A stretch of DNA of 64,000 bases from positions 2,465,001-2,529,000 of the forward strand of contig NZ_CP134696.1 in the NCBI RefSeq assembly GCF_031851795.1, in the 5' to 3' direction. The notes beneath the pieces are model-generated. The model ran no database searches, was not told the origin of the DNA, and was given only the letters and a program-made list of their open reading frames with translations. The stretch's first letter is position 1. Every line of letters begins with the position of its first letter. This document shows positions 2,009 through 26,283 of the stretch, one piece after another. Position numbers and translations under genes: made by a program. The stretch is from Pontibacter sp. G13 (GTDB taxonomy: Bacteria > Bacteroidota > Bacteroidia > J057).

Positions 2009-2050
2009 ATCATTTGGGGGTAATAGTCTTCGATTTTGGGGGACGTTATG

Positions 2051-3955: not shown

Positions 3956-3976
3956 GTTGAAATATTCTGTCAGGTG

Positions 3977-5605: not shown

Positions 5606-5619
5606 ATCTGAGCAGATTG

Positions 5620-7092: not shown

Positions 7093-7175
7093 TGCGAATA
7101 GTCTTAGAAATCTGGCTTGGGTTCTTTTCAGCATTTCGCCCAGCACAAATGGCTGGGCGAATGATTCTGAATCAA

Positions 7176-9131: not shown

Positions 9132-9207
9132 CAAATCTGATTTTATTGGATAAAGTAGTAGCGATGGAGTATCAAAGGAAAGAGTATTTTAAAAATAGGA
9201 ATAAACT

Positions 9208-9240
9208 GATCTTACCTAGTTTATACCATATTTTACCCAA
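9208..9240 (-). promoter_or_regulatory. Paired 21-bp direct repeat, putative AraC operator of the GH127 operon
   Basis: On the coding strand two half-sites, GGGTAAAAT and AGGTAAGAT, start exactly 21 bp apart. The same arrangement is found upstream of four other units of this locus. It lies about 80 bp before the GH127 start codon. Confidence 0.7.
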
Positions 9241-9245
9241 ATCAG

Positions 9246-9279
9246 ATCAGGCCCAAAAACGCACGTAATTGGGCCTGAT
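9246..9279. terminator. Inverted repeat after the GH16 lipoprotein gene
   Basis: A perfect nine-pair inverted repeat (ATCAGGCCC and GGGCCTGAT, 16-base loop) begins two bases past the stop of the GH16 gene at 9282. There is no T run after the stem, only a T5 inside the loop on the minus strand, so termination or mRNA 3'-end protection are both possible. Confidence 0.5.
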
Positions 9280-9281
9280 GA

Positions 9282-10211
9282 TTATTCCTTCTGCCAAACG
9301 CGGATGTATTCAATCTCGAAATCGACCGGAAGATCACCTTCCTCTGGAATTCCATGCCAAGGAAAAGCCTCTGAATCCACCCAGATTTTCAGGGGATTGT
9401 GAAGAATCCAAGCCTCTTCGGCAGCATCATCGGTGGCTTCCGCCTCGATTTGCTCCGCAGTAGCTTCTCGGATCAATTCCCCATCTGCATAGAACTTCAG
9501 CCCCTCGGCAGACCATTCGCAGCCATAGGTGTGAAAGTCGTCGGCGACCCTCCAAGGCAATTCGTACTTGTCAGTCCATACGGTAGGACCTCCCATACCG
9601 GGGGCCCAGTCGTGAATGGAAAACTTGTACTCTTTCTCCAAAAAGGCTTTTTGAGACTGCTTGGGTTTGCCGACAAATTCGAACACATCCAACTCGGTGT
9701 TCTGTCCGGTCATCCAGAATGAACTGGTGATAGACGCATCCGCAGCTTTGCACTTGATTTCCATATAACCGTATCGGAACAAATTCTTGCCGATAACGGC
9801 CGCTGTGGTCATATTTTCAAATTGGTAGGAGGTGCCGTTGGCGTAATAATCCACCTTGGTACTAAAGGGAAAATCAGGCTCCCATCGGGTTTCGATCATG
9901 AGCTTACCGTCCTCGATCCGCACATTGTCGGTGGAGAACTGAGCGGGCGCACGGCCGATAAAGTTGGACTCATATTGTCCGTCCTTGCCCTGAATGTGCC
10001 ATTTTTCCTCGTCCAATACAGCATCCTCAAACTCATCGCTAAAGCGCGTTTTGTAGACCCAGTTTCCCAAATTGTCGGGATCCGAGTCTGGAAAAACTTG
10101 AGGCGTCTCATCTACTGGTGGCTCCTCGGGTGTGCATCCGAATCCCAGGCCGAGCATCAAGGCCGCCCCAAATCCGAAAGCAAAAATTGTTAAGCGATTA
10201 TTCGTAGTCAT
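9282..10211 (-). CDS. GH16 glycoside hydrolase, surface lipoprotein
   Basis: A 309-residue enzyme from the ATG at 10211, chosen because it begins a lipoprotein signal ending GLGFGC (Cys26). The catalytic motif is E173-L-D175-V-F-E178. The protein is essentially one GH16 domain that ends DFEIEYIRVWQKE, with no extra module. It is paralogous to the GH16 gene at 5620 and probably arose by local duplication. As a lipoprotein it would remain on the cell surface near SusD and cut imported or surface-bound chains, whereas the T9SS GH16 at 10454 would be released. It stands alone, with 242 bp upstream that lack the 21-bp operator. Galactanase specificity (carrageenan, furcellaran, agar or porphyran) is not decided by the sequence. 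Confidence 0.87.
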   Translation of the reverse strand: MTTNNRLTIFAFGFGAALMLGLGFGCTPEEPPVDETPQVFPDSDPDNLGNWVYKTRFSDEFEDAVLDEEKWHIQGKDGQYESNFIGRAPAQFSTDNVRIEDGKLMIETRWEPDFPFSTKVDYYANGTSYQFENMTTAAVIGKNLFRYGYMEIKCKAADASITSSFWMTGQNTELDVFEFVGKPKQSQKAFLEKEYKFSIHDWAPGMGGPTVWTDKYELPWRVADDFHTYGCEWSAEGLKFYADGELIREATAEQIEAEATDDAAEEAWILHNPLKIWVDSEAFPWHGIPEEGDLPVDFEIEYIRVWQKE

Positions 10212-10453
10212 GATGTTGGCAATGAAAGGCCTCAGGGCCGACAAGAAGTCCCAACAACTTCCAGCGGCACTGAGACAATAGAGAAAAGATTTGATTCGCA
10301 GCTGATCAAGTAATTCCTCCAGGTGAATCCTGAACGTCTCGACGAAATCGTCCAAGCAGGAAAATCAACCCTGGCGGTCCAAGTGATTAATCCTTGACGC
10401 CAAGTCCCTATTAGAGATCCAGTCCAAACATTCGATCAAGCTGAGAGAGAGGC

Positions 10454-11953
10454 TTACCGTTGGGAGATCAGAACTTTTTCCACCATGCGATCGGCACCAT
10501 TGATGACGGTGATGGTGTAAATGCCTGTTGCACGAAACACGTCGTGGGAGACCTGATTAGTCGCCGATAGCTGTTCCGTACGGTAGATTTCCTTGCCCGT
10601 AAGGTCGTGAATCAAGATTTGAGAGGACTTGTGAGGGATAGTCGAGAGATTCACCCAAATGCCATCTTGGGCATGTTCGATCTGGATACCGTGATCCAAT
10701 TCCTCTTGGGTGGAAGTGGCTCCCTCCACCAACGTGATGGGATAATGTCCTTCTTCCAGATAGACGTCTTGTCCACCATCTTGAGAGGTGCGGAAGACGG
10801 GTTTGAGGATGTACTGATTACCAGCTGGAAGCATGGAGCTCGGATCAAGTCCCGCCAACGAGAAGGTAAAGGTAGTCAATCCTGATTCCTTACCGACAGT
10901 TCCGGGGTTTTCAAGGGAAATTTCCTGAACCACAGTACCGTCAGATTGAATCTCTTGCAATTTGCAGGTGACGCCATTCCAGATGGAATCTTCCACTTGA
11001 TGGTCATTTCCCGCAAAATAGCGGACATCGAACTTCAAGTCACTCGCCAACCCAAACTCCAAACCGTAGTAGCGGGACTTGTCAGCGTACAACTGGGCAG
11101 GAGTATCCCACACTCGCACATAGTCGCAGAACATTTCAGTCGGGAAGCCGGGCTCTGGGTCGGAATCTGGATAAGGCATCACCGTCCGGACCCCGTTGAT
11201 GTATCGCTCATAGGGCGTTCGCAAGCCCATAGAGACGGTGACGTACATTGGCAAATGCCAATAGACATTTTTCTTGGCTCCACGCTGAATCCCATCTACA
11301 TACCAGAAGATAGAGTCGAGACGGTTCCAAACGCCGTAGGTATGGAAATCATCCCGAGGGTCCCAAGGAGCCACCCAAGTGTTGTGGGTCAATTCGGCAT
11401 GTCCCTGTCCGGGGCGCTTCCAAGTCAAAACTCCATTTTCGAGGATGCGGGTATGGAGGTTCATCTCCAGACGGCTGTAATCGTAAGGCACTTGAAAAAT
11501 CTCAATTGCATCGATTTCGCAGTACTTGACGCCTCCCTCTTCGGTAGGAGTGGGCTGGCCGATGCTGTACATCCAGAATGCTGGGCAGGTTCCTTGACCT
11601 TTATCGCTGGCTTTGATACGCGTTTCGTAATAGCCATAAGTCATGGCTTCGCGGTTGCGCATGATACCGGAGGTAAAGTAGAAGGTCTGATTGCTCCGCC
11701 AATGTTCTTTGTGCTGCATTTGGAGCGTGAGCATGCTGTCAGTGATATAGGCATTTTCAGGTTCCCAGGACCAGGTACCCCAATCGTTTGGGTCATTGTT
11801 CCACTTGGCGAGATCGAGATTCGGCGCATTGAATTCATCCGAAAAACCCGTGTTGATAGTCCAAGGCTCGGTGGGGTGAGAAACGGGGTTTTGAGCAAAC
11901 AAGAAGAAGCTCATTCCCATAAGGAGCGACAAGAGTAAACTAATCCTTTTCAT
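10454..11953 (-). CDS. GH16 glycoside hydrolase with T9SS sorting domain
   Basis: A 499-residue secreted enzyme; the ATG at 11953 starts a standard signal peptide (MKRISLLLSLLMGMSFFLFA). The GH16 domain occupies about residues 25-290 with catalytic E146-I-D148-A-I-E151. Residues about 295-410 form a second beta-rich module. The last 75 residues are a type-A T9SS C-terminal domain (IHDLTGKEIYRTEQL, GIYTITVINGADRMVEKVLISQ), so the enzyme passes the outer membrane by T9SS. It differs clearly from the two other GH16 proteins here and probably represents a different subfamily, perhaps the secreted endo-enzyme that first depolymerises the wall polymer. It follows the binding-module gene at 12194, from which a terminator separates it. 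Confidence 0.87.
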   Translation of the reverse strand: MKRISLLLSLLMGMSFFLFAQNPVSHPTEPWTINTGFSDEFNAPNLDLAKWNNDPNDWGTWSWEPENAYITDSMLTLQMQHKEHWRSNQTFYFTSGIMRNREAMTYGYYETRIKASDKGQGTCPAFWMYSIGQPTPTEEGGVKYCEIDAIEIFQVPYDYSRLEMNLHTRILENGVLTWKRPGQGHAELTHNTWVAPWDPRDDFHTYGVWNRLDSIFWYVDGIQRGAKKNVYWHLPMYVTVSMGLRTPYERYINGVRTVMPYPDSDPEPGFPTEMFCDYVRVWDTPAQLYADKSRYYGLEFGLASDLKFDVRYFAGNDHQVEDSIWNGVTCKLQEIQSDGTVVQEISLENPGTVGKESGLTTFTFSLAGLDPSSMLPAGNQYILKPVFRTSQDGGQDVYLEEGHYPITLVEGATSTQEELDHGIQIEHAQDGIWVNLSTIPHKSSQILIHDLTGKEIYRTEQLSATNQVSHDVFRATGIYTITVINGADRMVEKVLISQR

Positions 11954-12049
11954 ATTCAAGGGGTTGACACCCAAAGATCATCTAGTAGACAGGATGACCT
12001 GATGGTTTGAATGTATTGGTGAAAACGAGTGAGTTCTGGGAAGGCAATT

Positions 12050-12110
12050 GGAAGGAAAGAAAAGGGCATGCCTTACCCTACAGGGAATCTGAAACAGATA
12101 AGGCACGCCC
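12050..12110 (-). terminator. Rho-independent terminator after the binding-module gene
   Basis: On the minus strand GGGCGTGCCTTA pairs with TAAGGCATGCCC (one mismatch), followed by TTTTCTTTCCTTCC. It lies between the T9SS binding-module gene (stop 12194) and the GH16 gene starting at 11953, so those genes are at least partly separate transcripts. Confidence 0.75.
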
Positions 12111-12193
12111 ACAAACAGAAGCTTAATATGGAAGCTGTTCAGTGTTTTCGCTTAATCGCATACACATGTAAACAGCTTTACAATCAGGTTAGG

Positions 12194-12931
12194 CTAGTTT
12201 TGAGCTACCATCACTTTTTCAGCGAGGTAGTATTTGCCAGCCTGTACGGACACGATGTACATGCCTGCAGCGGGAAGCTGAGCGGCATCGATCCGTACGA
12301 GATTTTGGTTGGATTCTGTAGTGAAGACCTCTTTTCCAGTGATATCGCGAACGATGATTTTCGCAGCGCCAGTCAATTGAGGCATGTCTACAGAGATTGC
12401 GTCTACGTGGTTGAGGATCTTGATGTACTTGCGAGCTTCCAAGTCGATAGAGGTAGTTGGAGATGTTCCTTCCACCACCAAAGTCCATGCGTCGCTGGTG
12501 TAGGAAGAAGAACCCTGTCCCCAGATCCACACTTTGAAAGTACCTGTCTCAGGCGCAGTGAAATCAATCGCCATGTCTTCCCAAGTAGTTTCGAACAGCT
12601 CGGTGTTTTGTACCAATCCAGAAGGACCACGTACGCCTACCCATACTCGTTGATCGGATTCGGCAGCGATAATGCGGGCCTTGCAGCGGAGTTCGTAGTT
12701 TACTCCTTGAGTCAAAGCCACTTCTTGGGCGGCATTTCCGACAGCGGCGTAGCTACCTTCAATGGTGTCTTCGACGATGGTCACAATGCTACCATTGTCG
12801 CCGAACCAAGGTGCCAAAGCGCCTGTTTCAAACCCTGGATTGGACAGGAGGTTTTGTCCAGAAACGGACGAAAAGCTCATCAAGCATGCGCAAACGAAAA
12901 ACGCAGTAAGTAAGTCGTAAACCTTTTTCAT
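12194..12931 (-). CDS. T9SS-secreted carbohydrate-binding-module-like protein
   Basis: A 245-residue protein from the ATG at 12931, which begins a clear signal peptide (MKKVYDLLTAFFVCACLMSF). Residues about 27-165 look like a beta-sandwich binding module of the CBM4/9 type: it opens NLLSNPGFETGALAPWF, continues with a GVNYELRCKARI strand, and closes on DAWTLVVEG. Residues about 175-245 are a T9SS sorting domain (IVRDITGKEVFTTESNQNLV, AGMYIVSVQAGKYYLAEKVMV). No catalytic domain is present, so it may capture polymer at the surface or act extracellularly with the GH16 enzymes. A paired 21-bp operator lies about 124 bp upstream, the sign that it belongs to the locus regulon. Confidence 0.8.
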   Translation of the reverse strand: MKKVYDLLTAFFVCACLMSFSSVSGQNLLSNPGFETGALAPWFGDNGSIVTIVEDTIEGSYAAVGNAAQEVALTQGVNYELRCKARIIAAESDQRVWVGVRGPSGLVQNTELFETTWEDMAIDFTAPETGTFKVWIWGQGSSSYTSDAWTLVVEGTSPTTSIDLEARKYIKILNHVDAISVDMPQLTGAAKIIVRDITGKEVFTTESNQNLVRIDAAQLPAAGMYIVSVQAGKYYLAEKVMVAQN

Positions 12932-13051
12932 AATCAATACTTTACCACCCCCCAATCGAATGATTGCGGCCACACAATTGAGGCGTGATGTGATAAATAG
13001 AGTGAAACTTCAAGTACAATAATAGTCCTACATTGGGTAGTGTTATTTCAG

Positions 13052-13085
13052 AATATTACCCTATACCTGCACTATTTTATCCCAC
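13052..13085 (-). promoter_or_regulatory. Paired 21-bp direct repeat, putative AraC operator of the binding-module gene
   Basis: On the coding strand GGGATAAAATAGTG is followed, 21 bp on, by AGGGTAATATTC. Spacing is identical to the four other sites in this locus. It ends about 120 bp before the start codon at 12931. Confidence 0.7.
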
Positions 13086-13121
13086 CTGAAATTCCCTCAT
13101 TTACGCATCGAATATGTAGGC

Positions 13122-14597
13122 CTAGCGACCGGAATCTGCCGGCTCTCGCTCTTCTTGGAAAAATTGGGATTGGTCCCGATAGGCATCCATCCGATCAATG
13201 TCTACATTCTCGAATTTCCGCTTCAACATCCATCTTGGACGTTCCAACGTGCTTTCCCACTGAAAGATCAGCTTGTACATCTCCCGGACCTTTTCGGGGT
13301 GCTGGTCAGCGACATTGTTCATTTCCCGCTCATCCTCCGCGATGTTGTAGAGTTCTGCAGGTCGATCGGGGAATCGGATCAGCTTCCAATCGCCCATCCT
13401 TACGGCTGCACGCGCCTGTTTCTTCCAGAACAATTGTTGGTGAGGAGCTTCGGATTGATCGCCCTGAACGAATGGCAACAGGTTCACCCCATCCAAGTCG
13501 GTCAATTGTCCCATGTCTCCCCCACCTGCGGCAAAAAAGGTAGGCAACAAGTCCAAGGTGATGATCGGCTGATGGTATTCGGAGCCGGCCTCTACCCGTC
13601 CGGGCCATTTCATGAGGAATGGCACACGGATTCCTCCTTCGAGGTGATTGGATTTAGTACCGCTCAAAGGATAATTGCTAGAGGCATTTTTGTCGGTAGG
13701 CCCCCCATTGTCATTGGTGAAAATCACGATGGTATTCTCAGCTAGACCTTCTGCTTCCAGGTGGTCTAGGACTTTTCCAACTGCGCGATCGAGCGCCACG
13801 GTCATTGCAGCCACGATTTTACGGTTTCCGTCCAAATGGGGAAACTTGGCAAGATCTTCCGGGCGAGCTTCCATCGGCGTGTGAACGGCATTGAATGCCA
13901 GAAAAGCGAAAAATGGTTGACCTTCGCTTTTTTCGATGAAGCGAATCGTTTCATCGGCGAGATCGTCAGTCAGATATTGTTGAGGTTCTTCGTAAACCCC
14001 AAATCCTCGCTCCATCTGATCCATGGCCCATTTGGGAGGGTTGGGATATTCGAAGTAGCTCCGAGCACCTCCACGGAATCCATAGAATTCATCAAAGCCG
14101 CGCTTCATCGGGTGGAAACGATCGGCACCGCCCAAGTGCCATTTGCCGAAATAGCCCGTCCGGTATCCAATGGCTTTCAGGTAATCACCCATGGTTTTTT
14201 CTTCCACAGGCAATCCCATTTCGTCCCCCAAAGCGGCGGAAACTTCGCTCATGTAGCCGGGGACATTGTTTTCGGTATAACCAAAACGCTGCTGGTATTT
14301 ACCGGTGATCAAGCCTGCACGGGAAGGACCACAGGTTGGATCGGAAACGTACCCTTGGGTGAATCGGACGCCTTCACTGGCCAATTTGTCGAGATTGGGC
14401 GTTGGCATGGTCTTGCTCCCATGAAAACCGAAATCGGCGTATCCGGCATCATCCGAGAAAATAAGGAGAATATTGGGCTGAGACTGGGGGGCTGGGGTCT
14501 CAATTGCGGCCGGGCCTGCCACTGATGCGGTTGATTGGCACCGACCTGTAAAGCCCATCAGGAGGATTGCTCCCAGGAGGAAAGCTAGATTCTTCAT
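13122..14597 (-). CDS. S1-family sulfatase (S1_19-like)
   Basis: A 491-residue formylglycine sulfatase. The ATG at 14597 is chosen since it starts a signal peptide ([18 protein letters not shown]); the longer reading frame upstream has no such start. The metal-site segment [13 protein letters not shown] is followed by C89-G-P-S-R, with C89 the residue converted to formylglycine. The [17 protein letters not shown] and GKWHLGG patterns resemble the S1_19 group, which contains carrageenan galactose-4-sulfatases; the subfamily call is from memory of patterns, not a search. Its own 21-bp paired operator lies 86 bp upstream. It therefore appears to be transcribed independently of susCD, from which the 141-bp repeat array separates it. 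Confidence 0.9.
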
Positions 14598-14680
14598 GAT
14601 ATTTATTCGCGATAGTTGATCCATGGCGGATTTGCCAGATCCTTCAAAGTGAATAAATCTCCCCTTTTCTCGATAAGTGA

Positions 14681-14712
14681 AATTTATCCCGCATGTACAG
14701 ATTTTTACCCCT
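14681..14712 (-). promoter_or_regulatory. Paired 21-bp direct repeat, putative AraC operator of the sulfatase gene
   Basis: Coding-strand half-sites GGGGTAAAAAT and CGGGATAAAT begin 21 bp apart, 86 bp before the start codon at 14597. The spacer contains TGTACATG, similar to the TGTA/TGCA spacers of the other sites. Confidence 0.7.
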
Positions 14713-14790
14713 CCTCGATGAACCACCTAGACGGGATCGGCAAATGTAACGCCTTTTTGAAAACCTATCCACCTCAAAACCAAGGACATC

Positions 14791-15354
14791 AAAAAACCCG
14801 CGGATCAATTCCACGGGCTATGCCTGGAGCGTCCTTACAGGACTCGCAAGCGTCCATGCGCCTACAGGATATGTGAGCGAGAAGTTCTCATCCTAAAAGG
14901 AGCACAGCAGATGAACCGCTGCACTCCTATCAAAAAACCCGCGGATCAAATCCGCGGGCTATGCCTAGAGCGTCCTTACAGGACTCGCAAGCGACCAAGC
15001 GCTTAAAGGGTATGTGAGCGAGAAGTTCTCATCCTAAAAGGAGCACAGCAGATGAACCGCTGCACTCCCATCAAAAAACCCGCGGATCAAATCCACGGGC
15101 TATACCTAGAGCGTCCTTACAGGACTCGCAAGCGACCAAGCGCTTACAGGATATGTGAGCGAGAAGTTCTCATCCTAAAAGGAGCACAGCAGATGAACCG
15201 CTGCACTCCTATCAAAAAACCCGCGGATCAAATCCACGGGCTATGCCTAGAGCGTCCTTACAGGACTCGCAAGCGACCAAGCGCTTACAGGATATGTGAG
15301 CGAGAAGTTCTCATCCTAAAAGGAGCACAGCAGATGAACCGCTGCACTCCCATG
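14791..15354 (-). repeat. Four tandem 141-bp repeats, each with a terminator-like hairpin
   Basis: Units begin at 14791, 14932, 15073 and 15214, an exact 141-bp period. Each opens with AAAAAACCCGCGGATCAA and the complementary arm ATCC(G/A)CGGG; on the minus strand this is a strong stem followed by six T, i.e. an intrinsic terminator. Each unit also holds GAGAAGTTCTC and an interrupted GGAG/CTCC stem. The array lies 53 bp past the susD stop. Because 141 is divisible by three, an open frame runs through it, but it has no coding features. Confidence 0.85.
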
Positions 15355-15407
15355 GATAAATAACTACTACTACTACTTTCTACTCTATTCGTGCTATTCC
15401 TCCGAGA

Positions 15408-17117
15408 TTAGTACCCATGATTCTGCAAGACTGCAGGGGCCTTTTCGATCTCCGTTCTTGGGATCGGGAGGTAATAGTGCTTTTCGAAATAAGGTCTTGT
15501 AACGACGGTGTATTCCTCGAAAGACAAGTTACCGTCTGTCTGCATGGTCCATCTGAGGCCGCGGATATCGAATCCGAGCTTATCCTCTTCCATCCATCGG
15601 CGCTCATCGAAGAAGTTGTGTCCTTCGAAGCAAAGCTCGACACGACGCTCGCGCTTGATCGCCTCCAACAAATCATCACCGCTTGCAGTAATTTCTGGCT
15701 GCAAGGCACGGCTGGAAACCATGTTCAAGTACTGACGGGCTTCTGCCTCATTTCCTACGTGATACATCGCCTCGGCATAGTTGAGGTAAACCTCGGCCAA
15801 GCGGTACAGGATGTATGGGCGCATCGGGGAAATACCTCCGTTCACGTCCACCAACTCATCTTGGAACTTGCGGATGTTGTATCCAGTCTTGGATGAATGC
15901 AATGGGTTGCCCAAGCCTTCTGGAGAATCCAATCCGTGAGGGTAGGTATCAGGATCTTCAGACAGGTAGTACTCGATTTTGCGGCCACGGAACTCTGCTC
16001 CGTTGAAGAGCAAGTTGGCGTAGTAACGCATCTCACGATTGTCATTCGGGTTCGCAGGATCAAACGTTCCATCTGTGGTATTGGAACCATCAGCCATATT
16101 GAACTGAAGGGTAAAGTTGTGAGTCGGAGAAGACAATCCCCATCCATCAAATCCATTTGGAGGCATCGTCTTGTCCCAGAGGGAGTTTGCATCCGTACCG
16201 AAGTCATAGAACTCTGGGCTGAATGGACGTGCAAACAAGATATCCTCGTTGGGAGACAAGAACAGATCTTGATAATCCTTGGCGTTGTTCACGGAGATCA
16301 AAGCGCGGCTTCCCACCATGTCGATCAACTCCTTGGCTGCATCGGCAGCATCTTGCCATTTGGAAGATTTGGCGTAATCGTACAATGGGCCATTCGGGAT
16401 GGTAGCAGGATCGTGCAATTTACTGGCAGCGTACAACAAGACGCGAGATTTGACAGCCATGGCAGCCAGTTTGGTTGCGCGGCCAAATTCAGCATCGGGA
16501 CGAGATTCAGGCAAAATGGCAGCAGCTTCGTCCAATTCGGTAACGATGAAGTCTACACATTCTTCGTAGCTGTTTCGCGCCAAATCGAAATCATCTTCCA
16601 ATCCCAACGCACGGTCAATGATAGGCACCCCACCGTAGAGACGGATCAGTTTGCTGTACAAATTCGCTCGCAGAAATCTCATCTCAGCCTTGAGGACATT
16701 GACTCGCTCGGGGTCCATGTCCATTGCTGGGCTATCGTCGATATTGTCGAGGAACTCGTTGCAGAGGCGTACATAGGTCCAGTACTGGTCCCACTTCTGG
16801 TTGAAGATACCGCTATTGCTTGGGGTCAATCCAGCTCTCATGCGGAATTGGTCCAGATCGCGGAAGTTGAATTTGGCTTCGAATGAAGCACCTTCGATGT
16901 TGAAGCGGCGCCCCCACCATTGCTGGCGGTTGATGCCCCAGCTTTCCGTGCTGTTGTAGGCGGTGAATACTAGTCCTTCCGCTTGAGAAGGATCGCTGTA
17001 GACCAAGTCTTCTGCGAAAGCACTTCTCGCTTCGGTATTCAGGATGTCGTCTGAGCAGGAGCTAAGCACCACTGCCGGCAACAAGAGTAACAGGAAAATA
17101 TATCTTGGAGATAGCAT
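15408..17117 (-). CDS. SusD-like surface glycan-binding lipoprotein (PUL 1)
   Basis: A 569-residue RagB/SusD-family protein that captures oligosaccharide at the cell surface and caps its SusC partner. The lipoprotein signal MLSPRYIFLLLLLPAVVLSSC gives lipidated Cys21. The N-terminal TPR-like region (NQKWDQYWTYVRLCNEFLDNI; AEMRFLRANLYSKLIRLYGGVPI) and the C-terminal block (IKRERRVELCFEGHNFFDERRW, PIPRTEIEKAP.L.NHGY) are characteristic. Its ATG directly abuts the susC stop, with no intergenic base, as in classic susCD pairs. Four terminator-like repeats follow the gene. Ligand specificity is inferred from neighbours. Confidence 0.95.
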   Translation of the reverse strand: MLSPRYIFLLLLLPAVVLSSCSDDILNTEARSAFAEDLVYSDPSQAEGLVFTAYNSTESWGINRQQWWGRRFNIEGASFEAKFNFRDLDQFRMRAGLTPSNSGIFNQKWDQYWTYVRLCNEFLDNIDDSPAMDMDPERVNVLKAEMRFLRANLYSKLIRLYGGVPIIDRALGLEDDFDLARNSYEECVDFIVTELDEAAAILPESRPDAEFGRATKLAAMAVKSRVLLYAASKLHDPATIPNGPLYDYAKSSKWQDAADAAKELIDMVGSRALISVNNAKDYQDLFLSPNEDILFARPFSPEFYDFGTDANSLWDKTMPPNGFDGWGLSSPTHNFTLQFNMADGSNTTDGTFDPANPNDNREMRYYANLLFNGAEFRGRKIEYYLSEDPDTYPHGLDSPEGLGNPLHSSKTGYNIRKFQDELVDVNGGISPMRPYILYRLAEVYLNYAEAMYHVGNEAEARQYLNMVSSRALQPEITASGDDLLEAIKRERRVELCFEGHNFFDERRWMEEDKLGFDIRGLRWTMQTDGNLSFEEYTVVTRPYFEKHYYLPIPRTEIEKAPAVLQNHGY

Positions 17118-20100
17118 TTAGTTGAAATTGAGGGTGGCACCAATGGAATAGGAAGTGAGGGACGGATAAGTACTGCCTCTGAAGTTGTTGTAGCCTGCAG
17201 CCTCAGGATCCAATCCCAGCTTGGCAACTTCGGAGAACATCGTCAAGAGGTTCAGGCCTCGTGCGAATACACGCACATTTCCGAACTTCAATCGGTCCTT
17301 TTTGATGGAGTATCCGAATTCCAATTCCTTCAATCGCAGGAATGAAGCATCGTGCAACCAGAGATCAGCTCCCTGGAAGTTGTCTGCTGCATTCAGGTTG
17401 CCACTGTAGGGATCGCCTTGAGCAAATGCACGTGGGTATCTAGCATCGCGATTCTCAGGCGTCCAGCGCTCGGTGAATACGTGCTCAGGCTTGGAGCCCG
17501 CTTGGTCGAAGAAGACCAACATTTGTGCTTTGGCCTGACCTTGCAACAAGAAGCTGAAATCAAATCCCTTGTAATTCAAGCCACCTGTGATACCGTACTG
17601 AATTTCAGGCACATTGGAAGAATACACACGGATACGGTCCGCAGCATCAATGACTCCATCTTCGTTGGTGTCCACATAGAATGGCTCACCTTCCACTGTT
17701 CCGCCCAATTTGGCAGGCGCAGCTTCCACTTGCTCTTGGTCGCGGAAAATTCCGTTGGTAGGATAGACGATGTAGGAATCCATCGGGAACCCTTCACGCT
17801 TGAGCTGATCTGGCACATCCACGGCCTCGTCCAAGTACACAATGCGGTTTTTCGCCTGCGTCACGTTCGCGCCAATGTTGTAGGTGAGCTCACCAACCTT
17901 ATCGTTCCAACCCAATTGGAATTCCCAACCGAAGTTGTCCACTTTACCCAAGTTCTCCTGCGGAAGCGTTACCCCGGCAAAATCAGGGATAGAAGCATTT
18001 CGAGTGATCAGGATGTCTTCACGCTTCTGGTAGAAGTAGTTCACATCACCCGTCAAGCGGAAGTTGAACATGGTGAAATTCAGCCCGACATTGCGCATTT
18101 CGGCAGTCTCCCAAGTGATGTCTGGGTTTGGCACACTTGTACTGGTGTATCCATTGTAGCGTGTACCGGGAGTTCCGAAGTAATAGAAGTTCGGGAAGGC
18201 CACGTCTACATCGCCACCATAGCTGTATCGAGTCAAGAACTGGAAGGAAGGGATGCGGTCATTACCCATGATTGCGTAAGAGCTGCGAACCTTCAAAGCG
18301 TCCAACCAGCTGTTGGTGAAGTTCATGAATTCCTCGTCTGCAATGGACCAAGCGACAGCCACACCGGGGAAGGTACCGAAGCGATTGCCAGGGCCGAAGT
18401 TGGAGGAGCCGTCATGACGCAAGGTAAAGTCTACGAAGTACTTCTTCTTGAAGTCATAGGACACCATGCCGAAGTAGTTCAGACGCGCCCACTCTGTGGA
18501 ACTACCGTTGGAGATCTGTCCCTCGTCGCTACCTGCGAAGAGATCAGGACGATCATCACTTGGGAATCCTCTACGCTCTGCCCAAAACTCACGCTCATTG
18601 GAGGTGAATCGCTCGTATCCCGCCAATCCACGGACCGTGTGCTCACCAAAGGTGCGGTCGTAGCGCAGGGTAGCGTTCAACATCAATTCATTGAACTGCC
18701 AGAATCTTTCGCGAAGAATGCGCTGATCTCCATTTTGGGAGAATCCGGGAGAAGGAATGTATTCCTCGGTTCCTTGCTGGAAGGTATAGATTTCCCAAGG
18801 CGTGTACCAGTCTTTGGTATCGGTCGTCCAGCGACGGATACCGGTATAAGCCTGAGCACTCAATCCTTTGGTCAACCATCCCAAGTCGAGGTCCAAAGTC
18901 AGTTTGGTCCGGAAGTTATTGTCGATGCGATTAACAAATCCAGATTCGCTGCTGGACATGATCGCAGGGTTTGCACCATTCTCACCGCCCCATGCATAGA
19001 GACCGTTCGGGTAAATTCCCACTTCGGTAGGCTCATTGGTGTAGATGTGCTTGTAAATGAAACCAGCGTCTACCCCAGGCTCGTTGCGATCGCCAAATCG
19101 ACCCGCAACATCCACGCCCAACTTCACGCGCTCGTGAATTTGAACATCGATATTGGAACGCAATTGATACTGCTTGAAATTCAAGTCGCCAGATTCGAAG
19201 ATCCCCACCTGATCGATGTAGTCACCACTGACGAAGTAGTTTACCTTTTCAGTACCACCGGAGATAGAGATGGAATTTCTCCATTCTGGGGAGTAGTCTG
19301 CGAATGTGAGATCCGCCCAATCCGTGTTAGGATAGTTGATCGGATCATTTCCTGCTGCGAATTTTTCGATATCCTCTTGGGTGAATTGGAGGGGAGTACC
19401 GTTGCGCTCGGCAGTTTCATTGGTGTGAATGGCATACTGCTCAGAATTCATCAGCGTAGGAAATGCCGAGAATCTGGATACGCTGTATGCGCTGTTGAAG
19501 CTGATGTTTGGCGTACCGAATTTACCGCGCTTGGTAGTGATCAGGATTACGCCGTTGGCTGCTCTAGCTCCGTAGATCGCCGCTGCCCCATCCTTGAGGA
19601 CCGTCACGGACTCGATGTCCTGCGGTGCCAAGTGCGAGAAGGATTCAGAAGGAACCCCATCGACCAAGATCAGCGGATTGTTGTTGTTCAGGGTGGATTT
19701 ACCCCGAATCAAGATGGAAACGTCTCCAGTACCACCGGGATACCCCCCGCGGTCGGAAACGATCAGTCCAGGTACTTTTCCAGCGAGAGATTTGACCAAG
19801 TCCTTGTTGGTCGTACGCTCGATCACTTCGGATTCAACCGTACTGACCGAACCTGTCAATTCGCCTTTTTTACGAGTAGTATATCCCACTACCACGACTT
19901 CATCCAACAATTGGTCGGAAACCTGCAGCGTGACAGACACTTGGGTCTTGTTGGTGATATCCACCTGCTGGGTTTCGTATCCGATGAAGCTGACAACAAG
20001 CGTATTTCCTCCGTCTGGGACATTGAGGGAGAAAGCTCCATTGTCATCGGTAAATGCTCCGGCATTGGTTCCCTCGATCAGCACAGTAGCGCCAGTCAGG

Positions 20101-20228
20101 GGTTCTCCGGAGTCGGATGCGTTGACCGTACCGGTCAGTGTGTTTTGGGCAGAAAGCCCTAGCGGAGCGAGTAATATCCATAGAATCACTAGCTGCCTAA
20201 AAGATGGTTTCAGTAGTAATCTCTTCAT
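17118..20228 (-). CDS. SusC-like TonB-dependent outer-membrane transporter (PUL 1)
   Basis: A 1036-residue TonB-dependent porin that imports oligosaccharide handed over by SusD. The ATG at 20228 begins the signal peptide ([20 protein letters not shown]). Domains in order: carboxypeptidase-regulatory-like beta domain ([21 protein letters not shown], about 30-110), plug domain with the SusC signature ([47 protein letters not shown], about 130-240), then the 22-strand barrel ending [10 protein letters not shown]. It is the first gene of the susCD unit; a paired 21-bp operator lies about 176 bp upstream. The divergence from the second SusC (38091) is large, so they probably carry different ligands. 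Confidence 0.95.
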   Translation of the reverse strand: [1036 protein letters not shown]

Positions 20229-20401
20229 AAACGGTGTTGTATTTGCGAGATGTAAGAATGCACCACCCAACCTCGCCGAATAGCAAGATTCGATTGACCT
20301 AGTGATCAATTCTAGGCCTCTTTTCTCGACCGGAAATCTGTTGGGGAGTAAGGCTACCTTTCCTTACAAAAAGACTCGTTTGGAGGCGGAACTACTTTAT
20401 G

Positions 20402-20434
20402 GATTTTACCCGGTTGTTACATTATTTTACCCCT
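20402..20434 (-). promoter_or_regulatory. Paired 21-bp direct repeat, putative AraC operator of susCD
   Basis: The cleanest of the five sites: GGGTAAAATAATG and GGGTAAAATCC on the coding strand, starting 21 bp apart. It lies between araC and susC, about 176 bp before the susC start. Confidence 0.75.
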
Positions 20435-20530
20435 TTTATCTCTTCATAGAAGACAATAGACAAAATCTGGGAATAAACAACCAGTGTTTATTCCCAGAAA
20501 GCAAAATTAAGTAATCCGCTTAATAAATCC

Positions 20531-21388
20531 TTACAAATCTTGACGGTAGCTATTGGGAGTTTTGCCCATGATCTGCTTGAACTGGCGGTTGAAATTCGTG
20601 ATGGAATTATAGCCGACCATGTAGCAGACTTCTGAGACTGAGTAGTCTTCTTGAACGAGGAGGCGGGAGGCGTTGCGGATTCGGACTTCGTTGAGGAATT
20701 GGGTGAATGATTTGTTGGTCATTCGCTTGAAGAATCGGCAGAAGGAATTGGTGGTCATACAGGCCACATCCGCCACATCTTGGAGGCCAATATAGCTCGC
20801 ATAATTGTCTGAAATGAATTTGAGTACGGTGTCGATTCGCTGTGAATTTTCGGTCGTGTATTGCCGCATATCCGTAGATGAAAGCACCGTTTTATCGGCG
20901 GTCATCGAAAGGCGCGCCAGAATATCCAGCAGTCGAATAGACTTGATGGGCGGAGGCAATTCGGCGATTCCGACCAGTTCATCATGTAGCCGTTCGCTGA
21001 TCCCTTGACCGAAACAGACGCCGTATTTGGACTCTTCCAGCAAACGCGCCACTTCGGAAAATTCTGGGAGCTCGAAGGTTCCCTCACCGATAAAATGCGG
21101 GGTAAATTTGAGGACCATGGCCATGACATCCTTTTCGCCAGAGGCTTGATAGTAGGAAGGATCATTGCGCCAAAGGTGGGGAAGATACGGCCCGACAAGC
21201 ACGAGGTCTCCGGGCGAAAATTGGGATACGCTATCGCCGACAAATCGGATGCCTGACCCTTTCGAGACGTAAAGCAATTCGTATTGGGCGTGATAATGCC
21301 AAGAAGAATCTAGGCAAGGAACCTCCTTCTTGGTGATCTGAATCCGTTCATCGACGTAACCAACCGTATTTTTAAGAACCAGTTTCAT
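20531..21388 (-). CDS. AraC-family transcriptional regulator with cupin sensor domain
   Basis: A 285-residue regulator. Residues about 1-100 form the AraC-type cupin that binds a small sugar ligand (HYHAQYELLYVSKGSGIRF, SPGDLVLVGPYLPHLW). Residues about 185-285 hold two helix-turn-helix motifs (IGLQDVADVACMTTNSFCRFFKR; YSVSEVCYMVGYNSITNFNRQFK) and end KTPNSYRQ. It is encoded between the anhydrosugar operon and susC. Five upstream regions in this locus share direct repeats spaced 21 bp, the spacing expected of a dimeric AraC protein binding two sites on one DNA face, so it is the best candidate for their regulator. A single half-site precedes its own gene. The ligand may be 3,6-anhydrogalactose or a derivative; that is inference. 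Confidence 0.9.
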   Translation of the reverse strand: MKLVLKNTVGYVDERIQITKKEVPCLDSSWHYHAQYELLYVSKGSGIRFVGDSVSQFSPGDLVLVGPYLPHLWRNDPSYYQASGEKDVMAMVLKFTPHFIGEGTFELPEFSEVARLLEESKYGVCFGQGISERLHDELVGIAELPPPIKSIRLLDILARLSMTADKTVLSSTDMRQYTTENSQRIDTVLKFISDNYASYIGLQDVADVACMTTNSFCRFFKRMTNKSFTQFLNEVRIRNASRLLVQEDYSVSEVCYMVGYNSITNFNRQFKQIMGKTPNSYRQDL

Positions 21389-21436
21389 AAGGCAGCAGCA
21401 GTAGTAGAATAGGAGTAGTGGACAATAAATCTAACC

Positions 21437-21447
21437 TATTTTATCCT
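21437..21447 (-). promoter_or_regulatory. Single half-site upstream of araC
   Basis: AGGATAAAATA on the coding strand resembles the operator half-site, about 50 bp before the araC start. No partner lies 21 bp away on either side, so it could mark weak autoregulation or chance. Confidence 0.35.
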
Positions 21448-21464
21448 TGTCACAAAGAAGCTGT

Positions 21465-21650
21465 TTAAGGTTTTGCATGTTGAAGCGAATTCCCCCCGCC
21501 TAACGTTCTCCAGCCGACATTTTGCAGCCTACCGTGGTTTCCATTCGAAAAAATGGTCCAAAGAGGCTCTGTGCATGAGCGAAACATGGTGCAGTTCCCA
21601 ATGAAAAAACAGCCTATGAGCCCCAGAAAGGCTGCATAGACTGTCTTCAT
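21465..21650 (-). CDS. Possible small lipoprotein
   Basis: A 61-residue frame between the kinase gene and araC. It begins with a lysine and a hydrophobic stretch ending in a Cys (MKTVYAAFLGLIGCFFIGNC), which reads as a lipoprotein signal, and AAGGA stands five bases before the ATG. The remainder shows no family I recognise. It follows the kinase stop by 24 bp, so it could be the last gene of the anhydrosugar operon. It may equally be a chance frame. Confidence 0.35.
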   Translation of the reverse strand: MKTVYAAFLGLIGCFFIGNCTMFRSCTEPLWTIFSNGNHGRLQNVGWRTLGGGNSLQHAKP

Positions 21651-21674
21651 CGATTCCTTAGATTGAAATGATCA

Positions 21675-22766
21675 CTATCGGACAACTCTTCCAGATGCAG
21701 ACCCTTTCATGAGGGCTTCCACTTCTGCACGAGTGGAAAAATTGAAATCTCCATTGATGGAATGCGCCAAACAAGAAGATGCAACCGCAAATCGAATCGC
21801 TTCCTGAGGGTGCTGAAACTCAGGTGTAGTCAAGGCAAATATCAGGGCTGCACCGAATGAGTCTCCACCACCCACTCGGTCTACAATCGCCCTAATTTCG
21901 TATGGCTCGTATTCACCACCATTCACCGGAGCGAAGTAAGGAGTTTGGGTCTCCGCATCGTATAGCATCGCGCTCCAATTGTTGTGAGTTGCGGAAATAC
22001 TTTCACGAAGGGTGATCGCCACTTTTTTGACATTTGGAAATTGACGGACGATCTCCTGAGCTACCTCCGAGTACTTAGCTCCGTCAATATGCCCTCCTTC
22101 GATGTCGGTATTTTCGGCGGAAATGCCGAGGACATCATGTGCATCCTCCTCATTACCGATAACCACATCCACGTAAGGCAGGATCTCACGCATTGTCCGC
22201 TGGGCAAGCTCCTTCGCAGAAGTGCTTTTGTCCCATTGCCACAACTTTTTACGGAAGTTAAGATCACACGAAACCGTCAAGCCGTGCTGCTTGGCTTTTT
22301 TGACAGCAGTCAAAGTCGCCTCAGCCGAAATTTCTGACAAGGCAGGGGTGATCCCTGTGGTATGGAGCCATTGTGCATCTGCCGCCAATTGCTCCCAGTC
22401 GTAAGAAGCCCCCGGAGTCAAGGAGATGGCAGTAGCAGTTCGGTCATATACCACACGGCTCGGACGCTGATTGGCGCCTCGCTCCACGAAGTAGATGCCC
22501 ATACGCCCATAGTCTGTGAGCTGAATTCCGCTCGTGTCGATGCCGATTCCGTCGAGTACCGATAGGCATACTTCGGAGATGGCGTTATTGGGAAGTGCTG
22601 TGACAAATCGGGCGTTTCCTCCGAGCATGGAGATGGAAGCCGCGACATTTGCTTCGGCACCGGCAAAGGTCATATCGAGTTTACCGGGCATGCTTTGTCG
22701 GAATCTCTGGAAATTCTCCGGACAAAGACGGCCCATGATTTCACCGAATGTTAAGATGGTCTTCAT
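21675..22766 (-). CDS. PfkB-family 2-keto-3-deoxy-sugar-acid kinase
   Basis: A 363-residue sugar kinase that should phosphorylate 2-keto-3-deoxy-galactonate (or -gluconate) at C6. Family marks: ITILTFGEIMGRL-like start (KTILTFGEIMG), the substrate-binding GAEANVAASISMLGG, and the PfkB signature near the end DRVGGGDSFGAALIFAL, whose Asp is the catalytic base. The ATG at 22766 overlaps the end of the aldolase gene by 26 bp, showing translational coupling; the longer frame would need a GTG start. With the aldolase, dehydrogenase and cycloisomerase it completes the route from 3,6-anhydro-D-galactose to pyruvate and glyceraldehyde-3-phosphate known from carrageenan users. Confidence 0.88.
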   Translation of the reverse strand: MKTILTFGEIMGRLCPENFQRFRQSMPGKLDMTFAGAEANVAASISMLGGNARFVTALPNNAISEVCLSVLDGIGIDTSGIQLTDYGRMGIYFVERGANQRPSRVVYDRTATAISLTPGASYDWEQLAADAQWLHTTGITPALSEISAEATLTAVKKAKQHGLTVSCDLNFRKKLWQWDKSTSAKELAQRTMREILPYVDVVIGNEEDAHDVLGISAENTDIEGGHIDGAKYSEVAQEIVRQFPNVKKVAITLRESISATHNNWSAMLYDAETQTPYFAPVNGGEYEPYEIRAIVDRVGGGDSFGAALIFALTTPEFQHPQEAIRFAVASSCLAHSINGDFNFSTRAEVEALMKGSASGRVVR

Positions 22767-23436
22767 TTGCTCTAGTTTCACTAATCAGGGTTCGAATGTC
22801 TCGCGCGTTCTGGGTGATAGTCTCCCAATCTTCTGATTGAATCAAATGGCGTTTGGCTACCCAAGAGCCTCCAATCGCAGAGATCAAGGGAGATTGGAGA
22901 TAGCCTTGGGCATTGTTCATATTCACGCCTCCTAGTGGGATGAATTTGGGTTCGAGATACTGGTAGGGATTGACCATACTATTGAGATGGTTCAGCCCTC
23001 CAGAGGTTTCCGCCGGAAAGAACTTCAATACTCGGCAACCAAGTTCAAGCGCTACCTCAATCTCTGAGGGCGTCATGATCCCCGGTGCAAAGGGAAGTCC
23101 CTCCTGCTGAGCCAATTCTACAATCTTGGGATTGCAACCCGGAGCGACCGCAAAGTCGACCCCGATATCCTGAACGGCCTTGACCTGATCGGCTGTGATG
23201 ACCGTCCCCATTCCCAAGATCACTTCCGGCGCTTCCTGCTTGATCAGCTTGGCGGCCTCCATCGCGATGGGCGTCCGGAGCGTAAGCTCGATCGCATTCA
23301 CCCCGCCTTTCAGCAGGCTCTCCACTACCGGGAGAGCATGCTGGAGTTCATCCAAGACAATAACGGCTACTATACCGGCTGCTTCAATACGGTTGAAGAC
23401 CTCCGGTACACCTACATGGTAAGAAGATGTTTGCAC
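22741..23436 (-). CDS. KDPG/KDPGal-type aldolase
   Basis: A 231-residue class I aldolase that splits 2-keto-3-deoxy-6-phospho-galactonate (or -gluconate) into pyruvate and glyceraldehyde-3-phosphate. The catalytic Glu lies in VNAIELTLRTP and the Schiff-base Lys in VLKFFPAETSGG; the phosphate-binding GGVN and IGGSW segments are also present. Translation appears to start at a GTG (23436), five bases after the dehydrogenase stop. It overlaps the kinase gene downstream. The enzyme is cytoplasmic. Sequence alone does not tell galacto from gluco specificity; context favours galacto. Confidence 0.9.
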   Translation of the reverse strand: MQTSSYHVGVPEVFNRIEAAGIVAVIVLDELQHALPVVESLLKGGVNAIELTLRTPIAMEAAKLIKQEAPEVILGMGTVITADQVKAVQDIGVDFAVAPGCNPKIVELAQQEGLPFAPGIMTPSEIEVALELGCRVLKFFPAETSGGLNHLNSMVNPYQYLEPKFIPLGGVNMNNAQGYLQSPLISAIGGSWVAKRHLIQSEDWETITQNARDIRTLISETRANEDHLNIR

Positions 23437-23441
23437 GGGTG

Positions 23442-24890
23442 TTAAATCGTTACGGTGATGCGTTTCTTGACGAGGTAATCATTGAGGGCTAGGTAGGAAC
23501 AATCATGGCCGATGCCACTCTCCTTGATTCCACCGTGAGGGAGGTAAATGGCATATTTGACGCCATTGATTTGCACCTCGCCAAACTCCAGTTCTTCGGA
23601 AAGCTCGCGTACCGTGCGCTCGTTGGAGGAGAACACATACGAAACCAGACCAAATTCAGTATTGTTGCCCAAAGCTACCGCCTCCTCCAGATCGGAGAAT
23701 TTCATCATGGCCGCGACTGGCCCGAAAATCTCCTCGCGGAAGCTACGGCTGTTTTCATCGATGCCTGTGATGATGGTCGGCTCCATGAAATTTCCTTGAG
23801 TGGCTCCGGCTGGAATTCCGCCTCCAAGGACCAGTTCTGCACCTGCGGCGACATCGTCCTCCACGAGCTGCATGATCCGATCTCGGTCTTGGCTGCTGAC
23901 CAATGGTCCCATGTCAGGTTTCTCTTCCAAGCCAAAACCAACCTTGATCTGTTTGGCCTGCTCGGTGAATTTCTCCAAAAATTCGTCATACACATCTTCG
24001 TGGATGATGAATCGGTTGGGAGAAACACATACCTGACCGCAGTTTCCATATTTCAGCGCGATCCCAGTATCTACGGCTGTTTCGATATCCGCATCGGCAC
24101 AGACGATGAATGGCGCATTCCCGCCCAGCTCCATGCTCAAGTGCTTGATCGAGGTAGCCGAATCCCGAATGACGCTTCTGCCAGATCGAGAAGAGCCGAT
24201 CATGGTGATGACTTTGGGAATCTTGCTAGTGGTCATCGGAAGAGCGACGTCTTGGACATCGCCACATACGAAATTGACTACTCCGGCAGGGAAATCGATT
24301 CCCGCCAAAATTTCGCCAAGCACAAGCGCAGACAATGGAGAGCGCTCGGAAGGCTTGATTATGATGGAGCAACCAGCCGCCAATGCAGGTCCAAGTTTGT
24401 ACCCGATATTGAGCAGCGGAAAATTCCATGCGAGATAGGCTACTGCCACGCCCGCTGGCTGATCCACAATCTGATGGCGGTGGGTATTTTCCTTGTCAGG
24501 AATGATCTCGCCATGCATATTCTGCATCACCTCTGGATAGAAGGTCAGCCCTTCCACCAGCATATCGATGTCTTCTTGGGCTTGCTCGTAGGTCTTGCCC
24601 ATTTCAAAGACTACTGCCTTGCGAAGGATGGATTCGTGCTTGAGGACTTCATCCCGCAATTTCATCATCCAAGCTGTACGCTCGGAAAGCGGCAATTTGG
24701 ACCAGCGCTTGAAGCCTTTCTGAGCTTCTACCAATGCCAATTCGGCATCTTCCTTGCCAGCCCACGCCACCTCTGCCACCACCTCATCGGTACCTGGGCA
24801 GATGATTTCCTGTTTATTTCCACTGGCGGCATCGAGCAATTTGCCACCGATATAGAGTTTCTTATACCCGAAATTCATGCGAACATCCAT
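23442..24890 (-). CDS. NAD(P)-dependent aldehyde dehydrogenase, probable 3,6-anhydro-D-galactose dehydrogenase
   Basis: A 482-residue ALDH-superfamily enzyme. The catalytic Cys is in GNCGQVCVSPNRF and the general-base Glu in SMELGGNAPFIV; the cofactor loop is MIGSSRSGRSV. Length and motifs fit succinate-semialdehyde/aldose dehydrogenase relatives. In red-algal galactan users an ALDH of this type oxidises 3,6-anhydrogalactose to 3,6-anhydrogalactonate, the first committed step. Its ATG overlaps the TAA of the cycloisomerase gene by one base, so the two steps are translationally coupled. Substrate is inferred from the operon. Confidence 0.88.
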   Translation of the reverse strand: MDVRMNFGYKKLYIGGKLLDAASGNKQEIICPGTDEVVAEVAWAGKEDAELALVEAQKGFKRWSKLPLSERTAWMMKLRDEVLKHESILRKAVVFEMGKTYEQAQEDIDMLVEGLTFYPEVMQNMHGEIIPDKENTHRHQIVDQPAGVAVAYLAWNFPLLNIGYKLGPALAAGCSIIIKPSERSPLSALVLGEILAGIDFPAGVVNFVCGDVQDVALPMTTSKIPKVITMIGSSRSGRSVIRDSATSIKHLSMELGGNAPFIVCADADIETAVDTGIALKYGNCGQVCVSPNRFIIHEDVYDEFLEKFTEQAKQIKVGFGLEEKPDMGPLVSSQDRDRIMQLVEDDVAAGAELVLGGGIPAGATQGNFMEPTIITGIDENSRSFREEIFGPVAAMMKFSDLEEAVALGNNTEFGLVSYVFSSNERTVRELSEELEFGEVQINGVKYAIYLPHGGIKESGIGHDCSYLALNDYLVKKRITVTI

Positions 24891-26029
24891 TAGAGAACAG
24901 GCTGCGCGTATTTGTAGAGCGCATCCTCGTTGAATTCAAATCCCAAACCGGGGCAATCGCTGATCTGGATTTCTCCATTGTCAATCACCATCTCTGAGGT
25001 CGTCAGCGAGTCCCTCAGTCCATTTTCCGTTCGGTCGTACTCGATGAAGAATTGAGGGGTTTTGAGGCGGCCCGGTACAGTATCTAAGTTACACACAAAA
25101 TGGAGTGCCGCCGAAATCGCAATGCCGGTTCCCCAAGTGTGCGGTACCACTTCCACGCCGTGTACGGACGCCAGCACAGCAATGCGCTTAGCCTCGGTCA
25201 ATCCTCCAGTAGCACAGATATCTGGCTGCACAATGTCCACGGATTTGGATTGCAGGAGCGTCTGGAATCCAAATCTCAGGTATTCACATTCGCCGCCAGC
25301 GATTGGGATGGTGGTCTTGGACCGCAGCTCCGCATACTGAGAATAGTATTCGGGGGAGATGGGTTCCTCAAACCAGTAAATATCGTATGGTTCAACCGCC
25401 TTGGCGAGCAAGATCGCTTCGCGGAGGTTGTATGCATGGTTGGCGTCGATCATCAGCTTGATGTCCGGGCCGATGGCTTCACGTACCAATCTGACGTTGC
25501 GGACATCTTCTTCGATCCCGAGTCCTACCTTCATCTTCATGGCCTTGTAGCCCAGATCCGCGTATTCCTTCGCCTCACGGGACAAAATCTCTCCTTGGCT
25601 GTTGACGCTGGTGGAGAAGTACATGCCAGTGGCATAGGGGATGATAGTATCCCGCTTTTTACCGCCGAGCAATTGGTAGACTGGTTGCTCGAGGATCTTG
25701 CCTTTCAGGTCCCAAAGCGCTACATCGATCGCACTCAAGGCTGACACCAAAATCCCTCGCCGAGCAAAGTCCAAGGTCCGGCGGTACATCGTTTCCCAAA
25801 TCGTCTCGGTCTCCAAAGGATTGGAACCCAGAATGAATGGCTTCAGATAGTCGATACCGGCTTTGATGACTTCAGCCGGGCCATATCCTTCTCCCCATCC
25901 GACATGTCCTGAATCACTGGTGATCTTGACGATGCAGATTCTGCGCTCAGAGTATTCCCATTGCGAAAAGTAGAAGCTCTCCTTCAGTTTATCAGTGATA
26001 ATGAAGCTTTCAATCGATTTAATCTTCAT
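24890..26029 (-). CDS. Enolase-superfamily enzyme, probable 3,6-anhydrogalactonate cycloisomerase
   Basis: A 379-residue mandelate-racemase-group protein. Catalytic residues are all visible: K165-M-K167, metal ligands D195, E221 and E247, and the D270/H297 dyad (PHTWG). This architecture fits anhydrogalactonate cycloisomerases, which open the anhydro ring of 3,6-anhydrogalactonate to give 2-keto-3-deoxy-galactonate, and also related sugar-acid dehydratases. It leads the operon (cycloisomerase, dehydrogenase, aldolase, kinase) and has a paired 21-bp operator about 225 bp upstream. The D-series substrate is favoured because the KDPG-type kinase and aldolase are adjacent, as in the D-anhydrogalactose route; the L-sugar of agar normally uses a different lower route. 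Confidence 0.85.
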   Translation of the reverse strand: MKIKSIESFIITDKLKESFYFSQWEYSERRICIVKITSDSGHVGWGEGYGPAEVIKAGIDYLKPFILGSNPLETETIWETMYRRTLDFARRGILVSALSAIDVALWDLKGKILEQPVYQLLGGKKRDTIIPYATGMYFSTSVNSQGEILSREAKEYADLGYKAMKMKVGLGIEEDVRNVRLVREAIGPDIKLMIDANHAYNLREAILLAKAVEPYDIYWFEEPISPEYYSQYAELRSKTTIPIAGGECEYLRFGFQTLLQSKSVDIVQPDICATGGLTEAKRIAVLASVHGVEVVPHTWGTGIAISAALHFVCNLDTVPGRLKTPQFFIEYDRTENGLRDSLTTSEMVIDNGEIQISDCPGLGFEFNEDALYKYAQPVL

Positions 26030-26253
26030 AGACGAGGTTATTGATCCAAATCAGGGTAATAAAGTAACCCGCACCATGCTTCAGCCCTGAGGCCGACACA
26101 TCGTTTCGAGCTACTAGAGTCTCGCCCATTTTTGCCAGATGATTTCATCCGGGTGTGCACCTACCAGACGAATCCATGTAAGCTACCCAGCAATTTGGGG
26201 GAGTTTTCTCATCTTCAAATGAAATAGAAAGGCCCGAGTATCGCTTGGCTTGG

Positions 26254-26283
26254 CTTACCCCGTACTTGCATTATTTTACCCGG
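26254..26283 (-). promoter_or_regulatory. Paired 21-bp direct repeat, putative AraC operator of the anhydrosugar operon
   Basis: CCGGGTAAAATAATG and CGGGGTAAGCC on the coding strand start 21 bp apart, upstream of the cycloisomerase gene. The first half and its TAATG extension are nearly identical to the susC site. Confidence 0.7.

Follow-up and report, generated by a model that had tools for sequence, protein, structure and literature searches.

In Escherichia coli, AraC acts at araI1-araI2, direct half-sites of about 17 bp that lie 21 bp apart, with the proximal half touching the -35 element. Among marine Bacteroidetes, the core carrageenan gene set comprises dauA-D, dagA, cgsB, cgrA and cgtAB (PMC5698469). 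In Zobellia galactanivorans, CgrA is encoded by ZGAL_3159; a cgrA deletion mutant lags and grows poorly on carrageenan, and RNA-Seq found the genes of the PUL to be induced jointly with distal genes, including susCD (PMC5698469). Units induced by anhydrogalactose include 3157-3155, 3150-3145, 3581-3580 and ZGAL_181, and cgkA, cgiA1, cgiA3 and 3629-3638 behave unlike those units (PMC5698469). No description of an operator was found in the main text of that study, and none for a CgrA-type regulator in the main texts of the open-access literature searched. The operator proposed here is of a known kind, the AraC direct repeat, and its regulator is of a known type; the operator itself was not found in that literature.

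The window is the whole 64,000-nucleotide stretch that we analyzed, from Pontibacter sp. G13 (contig NZ_CP134696.1, positions 2,465,001 to 2,529,000). By gene content, the cluster with the five sites is the core carrageenan gene set of marine Bacteroidetes, since a kappa-carrageenase-like GH16, a kappa-carrageenan sulfatase, a GH127, the MR_MLE/dehydrogenase/aldolase/kinase series and a SusCD pair occur together (Table 1). An AraC-family regulator gene is located among these core genes (dauA-D, dagA, cgsB, cgtAB). Our computations established the sites and their spacing, the geometry of the promoters, the target genes and the joint occurrence of sites and regulator.

Table 1. Paired sites, predicted promoter elements and genes of the window. 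E-values of the operators come from the site model trained on other genomes, and the tool itself describes such values as rough; operon extents are predicted from gene spacing.
Feature	Sequence	Position	Strand	Remarks
Operator 1	GGGTAAAATAATGCAAGTACGGGGTAA	26255-26281	-	before anhydrogalactose catabolic operon; E 1.4e-6
Sigma-A -7 box, operator 1 promoter	TTCATTTGAA	26214-26223	-	TTTG at offset 62
Operator 2	GGGTAAAATAATGTAACAACCGGGTAA	20406-20432	-	before susCD; E 1.5e-8
Sigma-A -7 box, operator 2 promoter	TCTTTTTGTA	20365-20374	-	TTTG at offset 62
Operator 3	GGGTAAAAATCTGTACATGCGGGATAA	14684-14710	-	before sulfatase; E 3.5e-5
Sigma-A -7 box, operator 3 promoter	TCACTTTGAA	14643-14652	-	TTTG at offset 62
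Operator 4	GGATAAAATAGTGCAGGTATAGGGTAA	13056-13082	-	before CBM-GH16-GH16 unit; E 2.6e-5
Sigma-A -7 box, operator 4 promoter	TATTATTGTA	13015-13024	-	ATTG replaces TTTG
Operator 5	GGGTAAAATATGGTATAAACTAGGTAA	9212-9238	-	before GH127 operon; E 5.7e-6
Sigma-A -7 box, operator 5 promoter	TTCCTTTGAT	9171-9180	-	TTTG at offset 62
MR_MLE cycloisomerase, DauB-like		24890-26029	-	first gene of catabolic operon; start 26029 (ATG)
Aldehyde dehydrogenase, DauA-like		23442-24890	-	catabolic operon
KDPG/KDPGal aldolase, DauD-like		22741-23436	-	catabolic operon
PfkB sugar kinase, DauC role		21675-22781	-	catabolic operon
AraC-family regulator, CgrA-type		20531-21388	-	proposed reader of the five operators; Pfam: cupin sensor and HTH_18
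SusC-like TonB-dependent transporter, CgtA-like		17118-20228	-	ATG at 20228
SusD-like lipoprotein, CgtB-like		15408-17117	-	
Sulfatase		13122-14624	-	ATG 14624; closest solved: exo-4S-kappa-carrageenan S1 sulfatase 6prm, E 1e-193
CBM_4_9 protein with Por secretion tail		12194-12931	-	ATG 12931; tail match slightly under Pfam cut-off
GH16		10454-11974	-	closest solved: kappa-carrageenase 5ocq/1dyp, E 1e-57
GH16 of CBM unit		9282-10355	-	
GH127, DagA-like 3,6-anhydro-D-galactosidase		7176-9131	-	ATG at 9131
Remaining GH127 operon: GH16, MFS transporter, FG-GAP protein, CgsB-like sulfatase		368-7146	-	membership predicted from spacing

Five direct repeats of the form RGRTAAAATA-N11-RGGTAAWWT occur in the window, all on the minus strand, which is the coding strand, with a period of exactly 21 bp. 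This agrees with the original prediction, which had placed five half-site pairs with this spacing in one orientation before the same five units; each site does lie upstream of a minus-strand gene, with 86-252 nt from site start to ATG. The shared half-site wording proposed at that time holds with one exception: the first half reads GGGTAAAA in four of the five sites, and site 13056 carries GGATAAAA. The second halves are GGGTAA (three sites), GGATAA and AGGTAA. The predicted T-G-x-A spacer core is present and is better written TGYAA at offsets 11-15, with G in 27 and A at offset 15 in 32 of 38 aligned sites.

A search of the 7.67-Mb genome for GGGTAAAAT-N12-GGGTAA gave four matches with at most one mismatch, two perfect and two with a single mismatch, and every one of them lies in the cluster. 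Site 14684 differs from this consensus at two positions, a level reached at 18 genome places in all; the plain consensus with mismatches was therefore too blunt for this site and was dropped as a detector in favor of a trained model. Training used 33 sites, all of them taken from other genomes and none from the window. Across the whole genome the model recovered exactly the five window sites (27.2-37.9 bits; E 1.5e-8 to 3.5e-5, rough values by the tool's own account), with the next-best place at 10.8 bits (E = 5.4). When the window was scanned, the five sites scored 27.6-37.7 and the highest score elsewhere was 7.8. The original prediction could have failed on equally good pairs at random places in the genome, and only the five matched. 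Chance repeats are ruled out by the genome-wide scans together with the shuffled-matrix controls described below, confirming that the five-repeat pattern is far beyond chance.

Comparative footprinting was performed on 20 loci (341 kb) that carry an orthologue of the regulator, including representatives of the Cyclobacteriaceae, Flammeovirgaceae, Flavobacteriaceae, Saprospiraceae, Marinilabiliaceae and Prolixibacteraceae. Pairs of GGRTAA were found 13 times at 21 bp and 0-2 times at any other distance. A matrix derived from the window's five half-site pairs matched 32 places at ≥18 bits; the search of related loci suggested earlier did yield the same sites. In comparison, 50 column-permuted matrices gave a mean of 0.24 and a maximum of 2 matches, and when the two halves were set at other spacings, the matches numbered at most 4. 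Downstream of these foreign sites lie susC, the dau operon or genes for GH127, GH16 or a sulfatase, depending on which gene comes after the regulator or opens the unit. Sites were present in 13 of 13 genomes with an orthologue, some of which had supplied training sites, and likewise in 13 of 13 further flavobacterial genomes that encode an orthologue (59-68% identity) and had been kept out of training. A search of 60 relatives gave no match below E 1e-3 in the 58 that lack an orthologue, and five sites in each of the two that have one (the window's own genome and G001). Two control genomes, G237 and G463, contained unexpected strong sites; both have carrageenan loci adjoined by a diverged AraC gene (37-38% identical).

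Some observations concern the spread of the site. In Saccharicrinis (G454, L210-L216), the regulon is distributed over several contigs, with strong sites located before dau genes, one GH16, sulfatases and two SusCD pairs. Weaker, similar 21-bp repeats with a -7 box occur beside paralogous araC genes at L248 position 754 (G474) and L246 position 1776 (G237 C13), which indicates that the code is not wholly private; the AraC subfamily may share part of the operator grammar. In G004 (L055 position 7990), a member of the window's family, a 42%-identical AraC is encoded near a 63%-identical MR_MLE gene that is preceded by a weak site of 12 bits. This locus is possibly a diverged relative of the window system.

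Promoter geometry is a feature beyond what the original prediction had observed: a sigma-A -7 box lies at a fixed distance from the paired site. TTTG occurs exactly 62 positions from the first G in 26 of the 33 foreign sites, against a background of 0.0098 per offset (binomial P ~3e-46, a nominal value since the sequences are related). As these sites were picked by their half-site columns alone, the promoter signal is independent of the selection. In the window, four of five sites have TTTG at offset 62 and the fifth has ATTG. Columns 58-67 of the aligned sites read TwnnTTTGTA, matching the sigma-A -7 box TAnnTTTG. The flavobacterial -7 box is positioned at -12 to -5 (PMC9723704), so an offset converts to approximately that offset minus 70 relative to the predicted start. 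Converted in this way, half-site 1 would extend from about -70 to -54 and half-site 2 from about -49 to -33; given the single fixed distance to the -7 box, the proximal half-site comes to lie on position -33. Across these 17 bp, the aligned half-sites share RGGTAAAATw....AAT.

The regulator has a C-terminal HTH_18 domain (E 8.8e-22) and a cupin sensor, as identified with Pfam. Its clade, whose orthologues in the 20 loci are 64-75% identical, has 100/100 support in the tree and is joined at 100/99 to the regulators of G237 and G463 and one more sequence. The Zobellia-type regulator is 37% identical to the window AraC overall and 48% in the DNA-binding domain; because overall identity is this low, function was transferred through clade, site and gene context. 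The tie in the tree to Zobellia-type regulators is made by way of G237 and G463, with G237 in turn tied to Zobellia through gene order.

Upstream of the araC gene itself, a search for the full site found a lone half-site only, GGATAAAAT, at window positions 21438-21446 (minus strand), 58 nt before the araC start and right behind a TTTG. Locus L104 similarly has a lone half-site 26 nt upstream of its araC, and no such half-site is conserved in the remaining orthologue loci. Autoregulation is possible.

Genome G237 connects the sites to the expression data. Its locus (L240, L241, L245) has the order of ZGAL_3145-3159 minus one sulfatase, and its susCD is distant; G237 has no counterpart of cgsC. 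The two cgsB-like sulfatases of G237 are 64.6% identical to each other; ZGAL_181 and ZGAL_3146 share 65% identity (PMC5698469). Gene order and this sulfatase-pair identity are the sole link between G237 and Zobellia. The G237 operators precede the counterparts of 3157-3155, 3150-3145, 3581-3580 and ZGAL_181, thereby covering the distal susCD and the distant cgsB2-like sulfatase. These are the counterparts of the anhydrogalactose-induced units, a correlation suggesting that the signal sensed by a cytoplasmic regulator is anhydrogalactose. The inducer is probably 3,6-anhydro-D-galactose.

Across the phylum, the shared paired site recurs next to this type of AraC gene with its distance to the promoter unchanged, which argues that the site is very probably the on-switch of that protein. 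From the sequence comparisons, we consider it highly probable that the five repeats are the operators of the CgrA-type AraC in the window and that this protein activates the five units together; we infer binding, activation and ligand. Each operator would be a direct repeat of a 17-bp half-site with a period of 21 bp, and this distance of two helical turns is proposed to place two monomers on one face of the DNA. The sensor domain would bind a carrageenan-derived sugar, most likely 3,6-anhydro-D-galactose, and the sugar-bound dimer would occupy the operator and recruit sigma-A RNA polymerase at target promoters that have no recognizable -33 box, with half-site 2 covering the position of that element. 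Capture and import by SusCD, surface cleavage by GH16, desulfation, trimming by GH127 and anhydrogalactose catabolism would then be switched on jointly. The original proposal of a single AraC regulon that ties capture (SusCD and the CBM protein), cleavage (GH16, sulfatases and GH127) and catabolism (the dau operon) together is supported by the comparative evidence, with binding as a predicted step.

Other readers of the five sites were considered. Apart from the AraC gene, the closest regulator gene identified in the window encodes a hybrid sensor (HTCS; at 29238), and tandem sites in HTCS motifs of Bacteroides thetaiotaomicron average 21 bp apart (PMC3878776). It lies, however, in the neighboring cluster, PUL 2, whose promoters have no such site, and in 15 motif-bearing genomes the HTCS has only paralogues of at most 35% identity, with no match at E 1e-100 in G366, G143 and G452. 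Weak HTCS matches (23-35%) were found in just three of the 20 orthologue loci. The HTCS was rejected as the reader since no orthologue co-occurs with the motif, and we regard such a role as very unlikely; the motif is independent of the HTCS, and the lack of such sites in PUL 2 indicates separate control of the two clusters, as the original prediction had proposed. Reading by another AraC paralogue of the genome, or by several with overlapping specificity, is very unlikely as well, even though the genome holds at least two further AraC relatives at 30-31% and weaker related 21-bp repeats adjoin some AraC paralogues in other genomes. Strong sites track the CgrA clade and its Zobellia-type neighbor, whereas paralogues are common in site-free relatives; moreover, both of these lineages almost invariably have N214 and T/P264 in their recognition helices, residues that are uncommon among paralogues.

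Duplication of a promoter or of a mobile repeat could also yield five near-identical cores inside 17 kb with no operator function. Spacers and flanks differ between the copies, however, and what many genera have in common is limited to the half-sites, TGYAA core and -7 box. The 21-bp and 62-bp distances are fixed, and the site is kept while gene order and the downstream gene change, making this origin extremely improbable.

More broadly, we lean moderately toward the view that throughout the Bacteroidota the carrageenan regulon is defined by one operator code, in which the half-sites stand at a rigid spacing and at a rigid distance from the -7 box. This code would be read by two AraC lineages (37% identical), kept through reshuffling and scattering of targets, and would mark exactly those units that 3,6-anhydro-D-galactose induces. 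Earlier work established the regulator through a mutant and the regulon through RNA-Seq, and the motif adds a sequence handle to both. With it, members of the regulon, distant genes among them, can be predicted in further genomes of Bacteroidota; it also explains how carrageenan genes that lie scattered can be regulated together, and it makes the inducer role of anhydrogalactose directly testable.

Among the known systems, the Zobellia CgrA regulon resembles that of the window in that a carrageenan PUL containing dau genes, GH127 and sulfatases also encodes an AraC-family regulator. The two differ in that the Zobellia-type regulator belongs to a sister lineage, about 37% identical, and in that the window system forms a single contiguous PUL that includes a susCD pair of its own. 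The E. coli araI sites are matched in half-site length (~17 bp), period (21 bp) and position of the proximal half, here at -33, whereas the window promoters are of the Bacteroidota -7/-33 type and five of them are controlled; a distant looping site comparable to araO2 was not noticed. HTCS motifs of B. thetaiotaomicron are likewise direct repeats of ~21 bp before PUL operons and are read through an AraC-type HTH, but their reader is a membrane-spanning sensor-kinase fusion, unlike the small soluble cupin-AraC of the window (PMC3878776). XylRA of marine Vibrio, whose binding to direct repeats was demonstrated by gel shift, differs in its LacI-type sensor domain, its gammaproteobacterial host and its ligand, xylose; it resembles the window system in that its HTH is of the AraC type and that AT-rich direct repeats precede several units of a locus for an algal polysaccharide (PMC12125979).
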